From Dongshaea marina (lineage in GTDB: Bacteria > Pseudomonadota > Gammaproteobacteria > Enterobacterales > Aeromonadaceae), in assembly GCF_003072645.1 (NCBI RefSeq), contig NZ_CP028897.1:1501658-1565657 (forward strand): a DNA stretch of 64,000 nucleotides, given 5' to 3'. The notes beneath the pieces are model-generated. The model was not told where the DNA came from. It worked only from the letters and a program-made list of their open reading frames with translations, and searched no databases. Below, in pieces: positions 4,561-15,001 of the stretch. The position numbers and the translations under genes were made by a program. The first letter of the stretch is position 1, and every line of letters begins with the position of its first letter.

Positions 4561-6225
4561 ATGGCAAAGAGATTGGTACAGCAGCTTCTATCGGGAGAGG
4601 GAAAGCTCAGGGGAGTGCCATTGGATTGGCTCAGGCAGGCAAGGGTGCAGTTGGGGATCATGATCCTGACATCGGCCCTGGTTGCTCTGTTACTGGTGAT
4701 CTGGTTATGGAGCCAGAGTGTTAGTTATGTTCCCCTGTATGGAGCACACCAGCCGGTGAGTGAAAGCCAGATCCTCAGTGTTCTGGATAAAACCGGGATT
4801 GGCTATCGGATCGATCCGCAAACCGGTCGGGTATTGGTGGACAGCTCGATGCTTGCCCGTGCCCGGATCAAACTGGCAGCAGCGGGTGTAAAAGCAAAAA
4901 TGCCCCAGGGACTGGAGATCCTCAATAAGTCCCAGGAGATAGGGGCGACTCAGTTTGTGGAGGGGATCCGCTATCGGCACGCCCTTGAGGGGGAGCTGGC
5001 ACGCTCCATCATGTCATTGCAGCCGGTCTCCTACGCCATTGTCCACCTTGGGATCCCAAGAGAGAATCAGTTTGTTGGTCGTGCGGATGGTCATCCCAAG
5101 GCTGCAGTACTGGTGGAGTTAAAGGGCGGCGAGAGCCTAAATCCGGAGCAGGTCGAGGCGATCATTAATCTGGTTTCCGGCGCCGTGCCGGATCTCAAGG
5201 CGCAAAATGTATCTGTTGAGGATCAGTTTGGCCATGTGCTCAGTGCCGGTCTCAATCATTCCGGACAGGTGATGGGTCAGGCAAACAGTAAACTTGGTTA
5301 TGTCGCCTCTTTGCAGCAGCGCTACATCGAACAAATTAGCCAGATCTTACGTCCGGTGTTAGGCGCAAATAATTTTCAGGTTCAGGTTGATGCCAGTGTT
5401 AACTTTGATGCTCTGGAGCAGATGTCTGAACAGTATGAACCCAATAAAAAAGAGATCAGCAGTGAATATATCGAGCTGGATCAGAGCGTTGATGGAGCGC
5501 GGGCGATCGGGGTGCCGGGCTCTTTGAGCAATCGCCCGGCACGAACCAGCAAGCAGTCGGATAACACGGGAGGGAATCGGCACACCCAGACCAAGCGTCA
5601 ATATGCTCTGGGGAGGACGGTGAGTAAGCTGAGCCGTGAACCCGGTGAGGTGAGCCGTTTGTCGGTGGCGGTCCTGGTTAACTCTCAGGCTTTGGGGAGC
5701 CCGGCGAACCCTAAGGAGAAGCGTGCGGTTGATGCAAAGGATCTGAAAAAGCTCAGGCAGCTGGTATCAAGCTCGGTGGGACTGGATCCCAAGCGGGGAG
5801 ATGCCCTGACTATTGAGGCTTTGCCATTTCAGCACCAGGCACCCCTGGCGTTTCAGGATCATAGTCGTTGGTGGCAGGATCCCATGCTGATCTACTACCT
5901 CAAGTATGGGATCGCAGGCTTACTGGCCCTGGTGTTGCTGGTGATCCTGGGAGGGCCACTGGCACGGGCCATGTTGGGACAGCGCCGCGTCATGGAGCAA
6001 GCGTTACCGGCAGGCGTCGATCCGGCCCGTCCGGGAGATTCAACGATGGACAGTTATGGAGCCTCGGCTCAGACTGTGGCGAGCCAGGGGCCGAGGTTTA
6101 GTGAACTTGCTCCTTTGGATAACAGCTTGGATGGCAGGTTAAGACAACTTAAGGGGCTGGCGGAAGATGATCCAGCGCGGGCGGCTCAGGTGATCCGGCA
6201 GTGGATGAAAGAAAATGGCCAATGA
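4561..6225 (+). CDS. fliF: Flagellar MS-ring protein FliF
   Basis: Forms the inner-membrane MS ring on which the C ring and export gate assemble. 554 aa, typical length. The first membrane span is at about residues 34-52 (ILTSALVALLLVIWLW). The periplasmic ring-building motifs follow (YVPLYG, YRIDPQTGRVLVDSS, ARIKLAAAG, EGIRYRHALEGELARSI, VHLGIP). The second span is at about 440-470 (YGIAGLLALVLLVILGG). The C-terminal tail (DDPARAAQVIRQWMKENG) is the FliG-binding peptide. The stop overlaps the fliG start by 11 bases, the coupling usual in this operon. Confidence 0.96.
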   Translation: MAKRLVQQLLSGEGKLRGVPLDWLRQARVQLGIMILTSALVALLLVIWLWSQSVSYVPLYGAHQPVSESQILSVLDKTGIGYRIDPQTGRVLVDSSMLARARIKLAAAGVKAKMPQGLEILNKSQEIGATQFVEGIRYRHALEGELARSIMSLQPVSYAIVHLGIPRENQFVGRADGHPKAAVLVELKGGESLNPEQVEAIINLVSGAVPDLKAQNVSVEDQFGHVLSAGLNHSGQVMGQANSKLGYVASLQQRYIEQISQILRPVLGANNFQVQVDASVNFDALEQMSEQYEPNKKEISSEYIELDQSVDGARAIGVPGSLSNRPARTSKQSDNTGGNRHTQTKRQYALGRTVSKLSREPGEVSRLSVAVLVNSQALGSPANPKEKRAVDAKDLKKLRQLVSSSVGLDPKRGDALTIEALPFQHQAPLAFQDHSRWWQDPMLIYYLKYGIAGLLALVLLVILGGPLARAMLGQRRVMEQALPAGVDPARPGDSTMDSYGASAQTVASQGPRFSELAPLDNSLDGRLRQLKGLAEDDPARAAQVIRQWMKENGQ

Positions 6226-7256
6226 AGTAAATCAGATACAGGATCTGCGGATCACCCAAGCCCCCAGCTTACACCGGGTGTTGACGGTGCGGCTGTGTTG
6301 CTGCTCAGCCTCGGGGAGGAGTGTACGGCCGAGGTGTTCAAACACCTGGAGCAGGAGGAGCTTCACCAGCTCAGTGCCGCCATGGCGCGGGCTGATGGGA
6401 TCTCCCAGGAGCGAGTCAATGAGGCGGTCGAGCAGTTTTACCTGGACTATCAGGAGCAGAGCGGGGTTAGCCTGCAGACGCGCAGTTATCTGCAAAAATC
6501 TCTTGGGCTGGCACTGGGAGAGCCACTGGCAGAGCATGTGATGAGCAGTCTGTACCAGGGGGATATCGCCCAGAGTTTGATGCGATTGAACTGGATTGAG
6601 TCTGGCACTCTGGTGCGTTTATTAGAACCTGAGCACCCCAGTTGCAGGCTGTGGTGCTGGCAAGCCTCACCGAAGAGAAGGGGCAGCAGGTTCTGTCACT
6701 GCTTCCGGAACATTCTCACGAAGATCTCTTGTATCGTCTGGCGAATCTTAAGGAGCTCCAGCCTCAAACCCTCCAGGAGCTGGAGCGGGTGCTGGAGCTG
6801 TTTGTCGATGGGCTGGATAGCTCTCAGGCCTACCCTCTCAATGGCCTGGATAAGGCGGCAGCCCTATTGGGCAGGATGGACTCAGAGCGCAGTCACTCGG
6901 TTCTGGAGCAATTGCGTGTTGCCAATGGTGAACTGGCAGAGCAGCTGGCAGATGCCATGCTGACCTTTGAGCTGCTCCTCAATCAAAGTGATGTAACCCT
7001 GAGGCGACTGCTGGATGAGGTGCCACAGGACCTGATGGTTAAGGCCCTCAAGGGAGCCGATGATGAGCAGCTGAAAAGACTCTATCGCAGCCTGCCGAAT
7101 CGGGCTGCGCAATATCTCGCTGAGGCCCTGGAGATCCAGGGGGCGACCCGACGCAGTGTGGTCGAGAGTGCTCAGCGTGAGGTTTTGAGCACTTTACGCC
7201 AGCTGGCTGATAGCGGTGAGATCGAGCTCGATCTCTATCAGGAAGTGATGCTCTAG
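6215..7256 (+). CDS. fliG: Flagellar motor switch protein FliG, frame broken twice
   Basis: C-ring subunit that contacts FliF and the stator. The family sequence is complete but spread over three frames. The start is MANEVNQIQDLRITQAP. After a C5 run (6261-6265) the sense continues one frame away (GVDGAAVLLLSLGEECTAEVFKHLE). At a C4 run (6636-6639) it shifts again to LQAVVLASLTEEKGQQVLSLLPE, after which the C-terminal torque domain reads through to 7256. Inserting one C at each run restores a single ~347-codon frame with the expected EHPQLQ motif. Both breaks are one-base deficits in C runs and match similar G-run deficits in istA, ycjX, recR and cheA, so sequencing under-call is likelier than a pseudogene. 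As written, no functional FliG would be made. Confidence 0.85.
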
Positions 7257-10871: not shown

Positions 10872-11297
10872 CTACTCTTTGAAAGCCTTGATCTCCCCCT
10901 GTTTGGTGAAACTCCAGACCGCAGGTGTTGCAGGAGCTCCTCCCATTCCAGGGCTCCCCGCTGGCATTCCGGGCACCGCGATGCCAGCGATATCTGGCTT
11001 GTCCCTGAGTAATTTCTTGATAAATTGCACCGGGACATGCCCCTCTACGATATAACCATCAACGATGGCAGTGTGGCAGGAACTAAGCTTCCGGGGGACT
11101 TTCATCTGGCTCAGCATCTGGTTGAGCGCTTTGTATGAGAGATCGTGCTCAGTCACTTTAAATCCGTTCTCTTTCATGTAGGTAGACCACCCACGACAAC
11201 AGCCTCAGGTCGGGTCTTTATACACATCGACCGTTTGAGATGCCAAGGTTGCAAATGACCAGACGAACAACAGCGTACCGATAAATATTTGCTTCAT
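10872..11297 (-). CDS. DUF411 metal-binding-type protein with in-frame TGA at the first motif Cys: candidate selenoprotein
   Basis: DUF411 proteins are small periplasmic proteins with an N-terminal CGCC-type motif, often near copper or redox genes. From the ATG at 11295-11297, which has an AAGGAG site six bases upstream, the frame runs 142 codons to TAG at 10872. It gives a signal peptide (MKQIFIGTLLFVWSFATLA), then VDVYKDPT, TGA at codon 31, and GCCRGWSTYMKENGFKV onward through SCHTAIVDGYIVEGHVP and GIAVPGMPAGSPGM, all standard for the family. The TGA stands exactly where the family has the first Cys of PTCGCC. Ten bases after it is a six-pair stem with a GGUCU loop, the loop of the E. coli fdhF SECIS element. 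Reading as selenocysteine is therefore likely; a nonsense mutation is the alternative. Ignoring the TGA leaves only a signal-less fragment starting at 11177. Confidence 0.85.
11178..11194 (-). promoter_or_regulatory. SECIS-like stem-loop downstream of the UGA codon
   Basis: In the minus-strand RNA, GUGGGU pairs with ACCUAC (six pairs, one G-U) around the five-base loop GGUCU. The stem begins 10 nt after the UGA at 11205-11207; in E. coli fdhF the spacing is 11 nt and the loop contains the same GGUCU. The bulged U of the E. coli stem is not evident. Position, loop and phase all fit a bacterial SECIS inside the coding frame. Confidence 0.75.
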
Positions 11298-11420
11298 ACC
11301 AAGCTCCTTGTTAATCCATGTTCAGACCAGGTACTCCAGCTAATTTTGTGCATGGAGTCATTTCAGCTTAATCCTTCCACCGGCTGGAAGGTCAAGGAGT
11401 GATGGCGAGCTGCTCGCTTG

Positions 11421-12399: not shown

Positions 12400-12859
12400 A
12401 TGATCCTCAGGCTATTCAGACATAAAGATCCCCTGTCACAAAAGCTGCTGGTATGGATTCTGGCTCTGAGCTTTTTTTTCGCTTTTTTGGCTACTGTGGC
12501 ACAGCTTTATACCGATTACCGTGAGTCACGAAGTGTACTGGATCACTCACTCAATGAGGTCTCAGTCGTTACACTCCCCTCTATTAATGTAGCGATGTGG
12601 AATATGGATGGTAAGGTCCTCAAAAGTATACTCGGGGGAGTGATCACTCAACCCAATATCGAATATATTGAGATCCGCGACAGCTATAATCACCTTTTCC
12701 TGGAGCTGGGAACATCTGCAGTTATCAATGCCATCCATCGGCACTACCCTATTATCCATACCAAAAAAGATGGCCAACAGGTCAAGATTGGGCAGCTCAA
12801 CATCACCGCCAGCCTGACAGGGATCTATAAGCAGCTACTATCCAAGCTGGTCATAATTA
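12400..12859 (+). pseudogene. Sensor histidine kinase, N-terminal part, interrupted by IS982 element
   Basis: First 153 codons of a membrane sensor kinase: a TM segment (LLVWILALSFFFAFLATVAQL), then a periplasmic sensing segment beginning YTDYRESRSVLDHSLNEVSVVTLPSINVAMWNMDG. The frame runs into the insertion sequence and stops within its end at 12876. Deleting the element with one copy of the 6-bp duplication restores LVIIIITQTVKTFFMSLCILLLIDW, the second membrane span, in frame with the kinase part downstream, for a 539-aa intact product. The insertion therefore looks recent, and the gene is inactive unless the downstream part is expressed alone. Confidence 0.9.
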
Positions 12860-13835
12860 ACCTGAGCTGCGCATAAGAGGGGAACTAAAAGCCCAAGCTG
12901 CGATCTGATCGTTTGTCCAGAACCATCAATCGCCAAGGAGCTTGGGCATGATCAATTTAGAAGCTATTTTCGTTGATGTCGATGATTTCTGTCAGGTCTT
13001 TCTACCCGCTTGGCAAAAACAGCAGATCTCCTTAGGTGTGAAGCAGCGGAACAGACCCTCTCGCCTGGCTGTCAGTGAAGTGATGACCATCGTCATCGCA
13101 TTCCATCGCTTGGGATTCCGAGACTTTAAATCCTATTATCTTCAGTTCGTATGTAAGTACTGGAAAAGCGAGTTCCCCGGCCTGGTGAGTTACACCCGGA
13201 TGTTGAAATTGATGCAAACGACCCTTGTCCCTTTGTGCTCCTATTTCACCCACAGACAAGCAAAACCTACTGGGATTGCATTCGTCGACTCAACAAAACT
13301 TCAGGTTTGCCATAACCTTCGCATCCCTCGACATCAAGTATTTCAAGGTGCTGCCAAGCGTGGCAAAGGAACCATGGGGTGGTTTTATGGATTTAAATTG
13401 CACCTTATCATCAATGATCAAGGTGGTGTTATCTCGGTCAAATTAACCCCAGCCAATGTTGATGACAGAACTCCTCTTCCTGAAATGTGCGAGCAGCTCT
13501 GGGGTTCACTCTATGGAGATAAAGGCTATATTTCAGGACCACTTGCAGAAGAGCTGGCAGACCAAGGGGTCACATTAATTACCAGCATCAGGAAGAATAT
13601 GAAACCAAAGTTGATGCGGCTATGGGATAAGCTGATGCTTCGCAAACGCTTCATCATTGAAACCGTCTTTGATCAGCTGAAGAACATCTCTCAGATAGAA
13701 CACTCACGGCATCGTAGCTGCGTCAGCTTTATGGTGAATCTCCTTGCTGGCCTCATTGCATATACCTTCCAGGAAAAGAAGCCGAGCATCCGAATGTCTC
13801 GGCTTGAAAAGGAAGCGCTTATGCAGATCTGAGGT
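12860..13835 (+). mobile_element. IS982-family insertion sequence (976 bp)
   Basis: Ends are imperfect inverted repeats matching at 14 of 18 positions (ACCTGAGCTGCGCATAAG on the left; ACCTCAGATCTGCATAAG read inward from the right). The flanks carry the 6-bp direct repeat TAATTA at 12854-12859 and 13836-13841. It contains one intact transposase gene. Precise removal restores the host kinase frame, which fixes the borders. Confidence 0.93.
12948..13832 (+). CDS. IS982-family transposase
   Basis: DDE transposase that cuts and joins the element. 294 aa from the ATG at 12948, with AAGGAG at 12934-12939. Conserved parts visible are the N-terminal VDVDDFCQVFLP, the first catalytic Asp in GIAFVDSTKLQVCHN, the second region VKLTPANVDDRTPLPEM and GDKGYISG, and the Glu region FIIETVFDQLKNI. 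The frame is complete, so the copy may be active. The gene fills the element almost to its right inverted repeat. Confidence 0.93.
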   Translation: MINLEAIFVDVDDFCQVFLPAWQKQQISLGVKQRNRPSRLAVSEVMTIVIAFHRLGFRDFKSYYLQFVCKYWKSEFPGLVSYTRMLKLMQTTLVPLCSYFTHRQAKPTGIAFVDSTKLQVCHNLRIPRHQVFQGAAKRGKGTMGWFYGFKLHLIINDQGGVISVKLTPANVDDRTPLPEMCEQLWGSLYGDKGYISGPLAEELADQGVTLITSIRKNMKPKLMRLWDKLMLRKRFIIETVFDQLKNISQIEHSRHRSCVSFMVNLLAGLIAYTFQEKKPSIRMSRLEKEALMQI

Positions 13836-13841
13836 TAATTA

Positions 13842-15001
13842 TCATTACTCAAACCGTCAAAACGTTTTTTATGTCTCTATGCATCCTGCTTCTAATCGAT
13901 TGGATGGTGATCCGTTATCTTAAAAAATTATCAGACTGGGCGTTCAGAGTCCGGCTCGATGATTTCTGTCTGCCACTGGACATCAACCGCTCCCATAAAG
14001 GAAGAAGAGATGCCTTAGATATCCTGGTGATGGGAATTCAGAAGATGCAGAGCAGGCTGTCACAAACTATGGAGGAGAAAAACAGAGCCGAGATGGAAGT
14101 ACGCGAGTGGAACAAGAAACTGGAGAAGCTTGTCGAGGAAAGAACCAAAGAGCTGAATGACTCACTAAAAAGTCTGAAAAAAACTCAGAAGCAGCTGGTT
14201 GAAAACGAAAAAATGGCAGCACTGGGTCAGTTAACTGCTGGCGTTGCTCACGAGATCAATACCCCCTTGGGGATCAGTGTTTCTGCCAATACCCTATTGT
14301 CCGAAAGCATCGAGGAGCTTGAGGAGCACATTCATTCCAATAACATCAAGCGATCTCAGCTGGATAAAATTATCAACACCAGCCAGGAAGCTTCTAAGAT
14401 GCTAACGCTTAATCTCTCACGGGCAGCACAGCTGATCCAAAGCTTCAAGCGTATCTCAGTTGATGAGTCATCCGAGATTGAATGTATTTTCAATGTCCAC
14501 AATTATCTGCAAGATATCATGGTGAGTGTCTCTCCTCTCATAAAGCAGTATCCGGAGCCGATAGCCCTCCATTTTGAGTGTGAGCAGAGAATTAACATCC
14601 ACTCATGTCCAGGCTCTCTGGCACAGATAATCACTAACTTGGTTTCCAACAGTATTCAGCATGGTTTTAACGATGTAGATTGGGGGGGCCGCTCACCGGA
14701 AATAACAATTAAGGCAACCCTATCTGAGCATAATGAGCTCGTTCTGGATTATCATGACAATGGGCGTGGGTTGAATCCATCTGATGCAGAGCGGGTGTTC
14801 GAGCCCTTCTATACCACAGCTCGGGGTCAGGGAAGTTCCGGCTTAGGCATGAGTATCCTGTATAACCAGGTCACTCATAAATTAAAAGGACGGGTCGAGT
14901 TAGACTTACAGTGTGCAGATGGCTTCCATCTGATTCTTTTCATCCCCTCTCTGAAACCCTGCGCGGATCCCGAACCCCATCCACCGGAGCAGAGGATATA
15001 G
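13842..15001 (+). pseudogene. Sensor histidine kinase, C-terminal part (after IS982)
   Basis: Second piece of the split kinase: membrane span (MSLCILLLIDWMVIRYL), HAMP-like linker, long coiled coil, HisKA motif with the phospho-acceptor His (AALGQLTAGVAHEINTPLG), and HATPase boxes (N box NLVSNSIQHGF, G1 DNGRGL, G2 GQGSSGLGMS). An internal ATG at 13871 could start a 376-aa protein with one membrane span and no sensor, but no good ribosome site precedes it. The binding-protein gene starts two bases after the stop, so kinase and binding proteins form one operon, probably a signalling pair. Confidence 0.88.

Follow-up and report, generated by a model that had tools for sequence, protein, structure and literature searches.

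The closest described relatives of the protein discussed here are the CopG-type copper proteins. Passages of PMC7558416 state that a CxCC motif and two methionines hold a tetranuclear Cu cluster in CopG-like proteins, and passages of PMC8456105 describe CopG as a Cu-thiol oxidoreductase, give the ligand motifs of CutG as C40-x-C42-C43 and M120-x6-M127, and mention that copper-resistance genes often adjoin CopG-type genes. For the insertion of selenocysteine (Sec), the comparable system is the SECIS element of Escherichia coli fdhF, a hairpin located just past the TGA with GGUCU in its apical loop, at 19-23 nt past the TGA.

The window analysed here, a stretch of 64,000 nucleotides of the Dongshaea marina genome, carries on its minus strand (11297-10872) a frame with an ATG start, a TAG end and, as its sole internal stop, a TGA at codon 31. 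This DUF411/CopG-like gene encodes 141 residues if codon 31 is a residue. We consider it very probable that it is an exported selenoprotein form of CopG, in which the UGA of codon 31 would be read as Sec by means of SelB and the hairpin that follows. The features of the locus, in window coordinates, are:

10872..11297, minus strand: DUF411/CopG-like gene (frame, translation, Pfam)
11304..11309, minus strand: ribosome-binding site AAGGAG, 6 nt 5' of the ATG (sequence)
11238..11297, minus strand: probable signal peptide, MKQIFIGTLLFVWSFATLAS (judged by eye)
11205..11207, minus strand: in-frame TGA, codon 31, position 1 of the conserved CxCC, here U-G-C-C (translation, alignment)
11196..11201, minus strand: C33-C34, the remaining Cys pair of CxCC, invariant across 37 rows of the alignment, chosen from 161 (alignment)
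11178..11194, minus strand: SECIS-like hairpin GUGGGU[GGUCU]ACCUAC, with GGUCU 17-21 nt past the TGA (sequence, folding)
11073..11078, minus strand: C74-H75, invariant in the 37 aligned rows chosen from 161 (alignment)
10944..10967, minus strand: M111-x6-M118, equivalent to the copper-binding M-x6-M methionines of CopG/CutG, invariant in the 37 rows (alignment)

These coordinates and the Pfam match (PF04214, DUF411; 94 bits, cut-off 27) agree with the sequence-only reading that preceded this analysis, which had described a DUF411 frame with a ribosome site interrupted solely by the TGA of codon 31 in the context PT-[TGA]-GCC; PT-U-GCC is indeed read in the translation. The gene is the only DUF411 match in a whole-genome search of D. 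marina. A promoter and terminator scan of the locus gave nothing above chance, and a near match to its DNA is absent from E. coli genomes.

Among solved structures, the sole low-E sequence match of the window protein is CopG of Pseudomonas aeruginosa (6WIS/6WJE). Its AlphaFold model has a mean pLDDT of 92.6, and the top five PDB matches of this model, the five with E < 0.001, are CopG chains (rmsd 1.8-2.0; TM 0.75-0.77 by query length and 0.84-0.86 by target length). The protein therefore shares family and predicted fold with P. aeruginosa CopG and Rhodobacter capsulatus CutG, as well as the CxCC position and M-x6-M: U31-x-C33-C34 and M111-x6-M118 match the CutG motifs and are invariant in the 37 rows, the TGA of 15 of these rows being taken as C. 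In contrast to CopG and CutG, the window gene codes the first Cys of CxCC as TGA. Since U31 lies on a ligand position of CxCC, a Sec at this site would be a copper ligand, and the aligned motifs suggest that Sec probably replaces a copper-ligand Cys in this protein. The earlier description as possibly metal- or thiol-active can thus be sharpened to a CopG homologue with TGA on a copper-ligand Cys.

No copper family was recovered by Pfam among the seven proteins around the window gene or the three that surround the TGA gene in G059, a genome of the same order; the neighbourhoods of most other TGA loci were viewed by eye as ORF lists only. The seven window neighbours are FliJ, a transposase, pieces of a sensor kinase, two ABC substrate-binding proteins and one unmatched protein. 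The DDE transposase (12942-13832) has a CHASE5 sensor domain on one side and part of a histidine kinase on the other (region 12400-15001), so that a sensor kinase seems interrupted by an insertion.

The TGA is conserved at one position of the family. In a joint re-reading, 163 of the 167 loci given matched (the remaining four came from the selD search), and removal of the duplicates L161 and L132 left 161 rows; these comprise extracted loci only and so do not include every match from the order-wide search. The Cys rows include near-copies, seven of them identical. At this codon, 23 rows have TGA, 81 TGC and 57 TGT, TAA and TAG being absent, and the motif is kept as C/U-x-C-C in 161/161 rows. 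The column therefore contains the U/C pairs (TGA in 23 rows, TGC/TGT in 138) that the sequence-only reading had proposed as a check, and the random stops elsewhere in relatives that would speak against it do not occur in the aligned part: all 23 stop-bearing rows have TGA at codon 31, the comparison being with homologues from outside the genus. These rows are the window gene, G059, 16 Acidobacteriota and five Chloroflexota (L034, L046, L021, G401 and G436).

A first contig scan gave 68 DUF411 loci, four with a stop at the codon 31 position, and a whole-genome search covered D. marina together with 60 relatives (61 genomes). Across 394 genomes of the window's order, 162 have a DUF411 match, and among the matches listed the stop-bearing rows are the window gene and G059 only. 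The Chloroflexota sample (400 genomes, from the phylum to which a locus titled Chloroflexi belongs) yielded seven DUF411 matches, three with TGA. In the sample assumed to be Acidobacteriota (396 genomes, from the phylum to which a locus titled Vicinamibacteria belongs), 43 matches were spread over 42 genomes, and 16 of the matches have TGA. DUF411 relatives are also plentiful on plasmids (3440 records).

The genome of D. marina has the machinery for Sec: selA, selD, two selB genes that score above the curated cut-off, and two genes for tRNA-Sec whose anticodon is TCA. Hence selA, selB, selC and selD, whose absence would count against a Sec reading, are all found. The genome also encodes the alpha subunit of a formate dehydrogenase (TIGR01591; 933 bits against 666 for the cut-off). 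Its gene has a TGA within HCARV-U-HAPSVSG, and past this TGA a hairpin whose loop contains GGUCU was recognized by eye. There are two Sec-insertion sets, at C1:464313-466336 (L129) and C1:665505-668924 (L130). One consists of tRNA-Sec, selA and selB, with hydrogenase-4 genes and the formate dehydrogenase gene downstream of them; in the other, the second selB and tRNA-Sec adjoin an operon for glycine/sarcosine/betaine reductase. Identity between the two SelB is 39.5%, and the two tRNA-Sec differ by 13 mismatches. The component-B reductase selenoprotein gene (TIGR01918; L129:7203) also contains a TGA, past which a hairpin CGUUGC-GGU-GCAACG can be seen by eye, and the component-B alpha gene (L129:4856-6147) appears split between frames.

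The Sec trait was also compared between TGA and Cys genomes. A SelA match is present in 22/22 other TGA genomes (23/23 with the window) vs 20/30 Cys genomes drawn from the Acidobacteriota and Chloroflexota samples (Fisher p = 0.003, uncorrected for kinship); the SelA matches of the TGA genome G063, located where a contig ends, and of the Cys genome G961 are pieces that score below the cut-off. tRNA-Sec was detected at E 1e-8 or lower in 20/23 TGA genomes and 22/30 Cys genomes, although hits of about 50 bits can be tRNA-Ser and the sole hit of the Cys genome G1103 is of such size. In the five TGA genomes checked first, tRNA-Sec was over the cut-off in all, with anticodon TCA (ARAGORN). The same E 1e-8 search did not find it in the TGA genomes G900, G926 and G1044, all three of which have selA.

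Ten bases past the TGA, the window mRNA can form GUGGGU-[GGUCU]-ACCUAC, and the claimed six-pair stem capped by GGUCU is therefore present, although the best-scoring form has an extra G-U pair and a 3-nt loop. Its bare energy is modest (-5.9 kcal/mol; p ~0.007 against synonymous reshuffles in that place). A 35-nt fold that includes it has an energy of -7.7 at a spacing of 17 nt, which lies narrowly within the published bSECIS model. As previously pointed out in the sequence-only reading, the loop is of the fdhF type: the same GGUCU occurs in E. coli fdhF and in the D. marina formate dehydrogenase gene. In contrast to this likeness in loop and position, the E. coli fdhF protein is unrelated to the window DUF411 protein and its stem sequence is different.

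Scoring with the bacterial SECIS model was less informative. The window hairpin fits, but the loose published model, which fits 17/23 TGA genes, also fits 66/138 Cys genes (p 0.02) and was rejected as too permissive to discriminate between TGA and Cys genes. An earlier fold-energy test against a random 61 of the 138 Cys genes (mean z -1.27 for TGA genes vs -0.30, p 0.0004) was replaced by a position-specific test on all 138, in which the score is the best uninterrupted stem with the apical loop starting 15-21 nt past the codon, compared with 300 synonymous reshuffles. Such a hairpin occurs in 20/23 TGA genes (mean -7.6 kcal/mol vs -2.7 in shuffles; p<=0.05 in 9/23) and in 43/138 Cys genes (mean -1.3 kcal/mol vs -1.1; p<=0.05 in 2/138). 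The difference between the two groups is marked (Mann-Whitney p = 4e-11), with the p value a guide only since the genes are related, and the test somewhat favours TGA genes because the range of 15-21 nt was picked after viewing their hairpins. Among Acidobacteriota and Chloroflexota loci alone, a hairpin of -4 or lower is found in 14/21 TGA vs 3/31 Cys genes.

A hairpin at this place occurs in most TGA genes but not in three from Chloroflexota (L021, L034 and L046), in which no uninterrupted hairpin with its loop at 15-21 nt was found and which may use another geometry. By eye, GG stands at the start of the loop in the TGA hairpins of L093, L017, L214 and L173, to which the conserved Trp codon TGG contributes by necessity. 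A common stem, longer than and different from the others, is found in eight Acidobacteriota TGA genes. Within these eight rows, where variation is little, 91.7% of cells are paired (60/500 shuffles as high) and one pair is changed on both sides (217/500 shuffles as high), which is too few compensatory changes to demonstrate the hairpin; the count excludes the window hairpin type and 12 other TGA genes, whose alignment was not counted because their stems are in different registers.

Codon differences between TGA pairs, counted position by position without gaps, suggest that the part past the TGA is maintained as protein. Without constraint, nonsynonymous and synonymous changes are expected at about 3:1. 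Past the TGA, the synonymous:nonsynonymous counts are 16:6 (L034/L046), 8:6 (L162/L163), 15:13 (L174/L177) and 16:17 (L174/L182), and therefore below that expectation, most clearly in L034/L046; for the 20 codons before the TGA, they are 3:0, 0:1, 4:12 and 6:4, respectively. A tree of the 161 rows (131 columns, Cys/Sec column masked) has ten state changes, at least three of them forced by starred branches, but it is weakly resolved, 131 columns being too few for firm placement. In this tree the window gene branches apart from the Cys forms found in its own family, and horizontal gain is therefore possible.

From these elements, a mechanism can be proposed. SelB would bind the hairpin starting 11 nt past the UGA and deliver Sec-tRNA-Sec to the ribosome at codon 31, and Sec insertion would give the full 141-residue protein with a UGCC motif. 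By homology to P. aeruginosa CopG, U/C-x-C-C and the two methionines would then hold a multinuclear cluster of copper on the thioredoxin-like fold, where the selenolate, in place of the first thiolate of CxCC, may benefit the protein by tuning copper affinity or redox chemistry, whether of Cu(I)/Cu(II) or of thiol/disulfide.

Other explanations of the TGA should be considered. A mutation or miscall from TGC or TGT, leaving a dead or mis-sequenced gene, would be in line with an assembly that seems otherwise defective: a flagellar gene of the window (6215-7256, named by eye) seems split between frames, as does the reductase component-B alpha gene elsewhere, which suggests indel errors or frameshifts, and a second genome of the genus appears neither among the 61 genomes nor among the matches listed for the order. 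Nevertheless, 22 other genomes have TGA at exactly codon 31 and nowhere else in the aligned part, which makes a base error unlikely; in addition, the remaining frame is intact and a stronger-than-chance hairpin follows the TGA. We regard an error or pseudogene as quite improbable. Near-cognate readthrough or Cys/Trp recoding would place another amino acid at the UGA and also yield a full-length protein, and the three TGA genomes in which tRNA-Sec was not found could be read in this way. However, the excess of selA in TGA over Cys genomes, the restriction of TGA to a Cys codon and the SECIS-like hairpin in 20/23 genes leave this reading very little probability. No more can be given to a true stop, which would produce a 30-residue peptide plus a shorter DUF411 protein from the ATG at 11177: an ATG-started frame of 101 residues does remain past the TGA, but it would lack both the N-terminal export signal, recognized by eye, and the CxCC kept in all rows.

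A different question is what the selenoprotein would do. It is possible, although less likely than not, that it acts as a periplasmic thiol/selenol redox protein, or with another metal, and has no CopG-type copper cluster, a view that overlaps with our preferred explanation. The thioredoxin-like fold, thioredoxin and glutaredoxin structure matches, a glutaredoxin-like model matched far under its cut-off and the lack of a copper family among the ten neighbours scanned point in this direction; in contrast, all five structural matches with E < 0.001 are CopG chains, the best sequence match is CopG, and M-x6-M is invariant in the 37 rows. On balance, we lean slightly towards a multinuclear Cu-Se-S cluster in which Sec is one of the ligands, carried by an exported protein of the CopG type, with several Cys/Sec exchanges across at least three bacterial groups.

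The sequence-only reading did not regard DUF411 as a described selenoprotein family, in agreement with the searchable literature. No report of DUF411 as a selenoprotein was found in full-text searches, although most subscription papers and all of bioRxiv lie outside them and an earlier mention is possible. In the same literature, selenocysteine was not paired with PF04214 or 'copper-thiol oxidoreductase', nor joined with phrases for a copper or periplasmic selenoprotein; CopG and selenocysteine together gave only single mentions of either word, and COG3019 was absent among the best-ranked selenoprotein literature, a weak indication. Table 1 of a 2026 review (PMC13188914) comprises 119 selenoprotein families and subfamilies without DUF411 or PF04214, and DUF411 is not named in the parts covered of the deep-Sep paper (PMC12013277). 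The four NCBIfam matches of the window protein at E up to 1 include no selenoprotein model. The metal-related selenoproteins in the review's table (the SO_0444 Cu/Zn efflux transporter, CopZ-like 2Fe-2S proteins, MbdU and a putative mercuric transport protein) share with the window protein a Sec in proteins named for metal handling, but the families differ by name and domain identifier. Bacterial selenoproteins and Cys/Sec pairing are known; DUF411/CopG with Sec is judged to be a real family of selenoproteins that has apparently gone undescribed, and it is this variant that is new.

Standard reading would cut such genes short at the TGA, which concerns 16/43 of the sampled Acidobacteriota and 3/7 of the sampled Chloroflexota DUF411 matches. 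A Sec-containing CopG would connect selenium with bacterial copper handling, and the natural Cys/Sec pairs in DUF411 provide test material for the role of selenium at a copper-cluster ligand.
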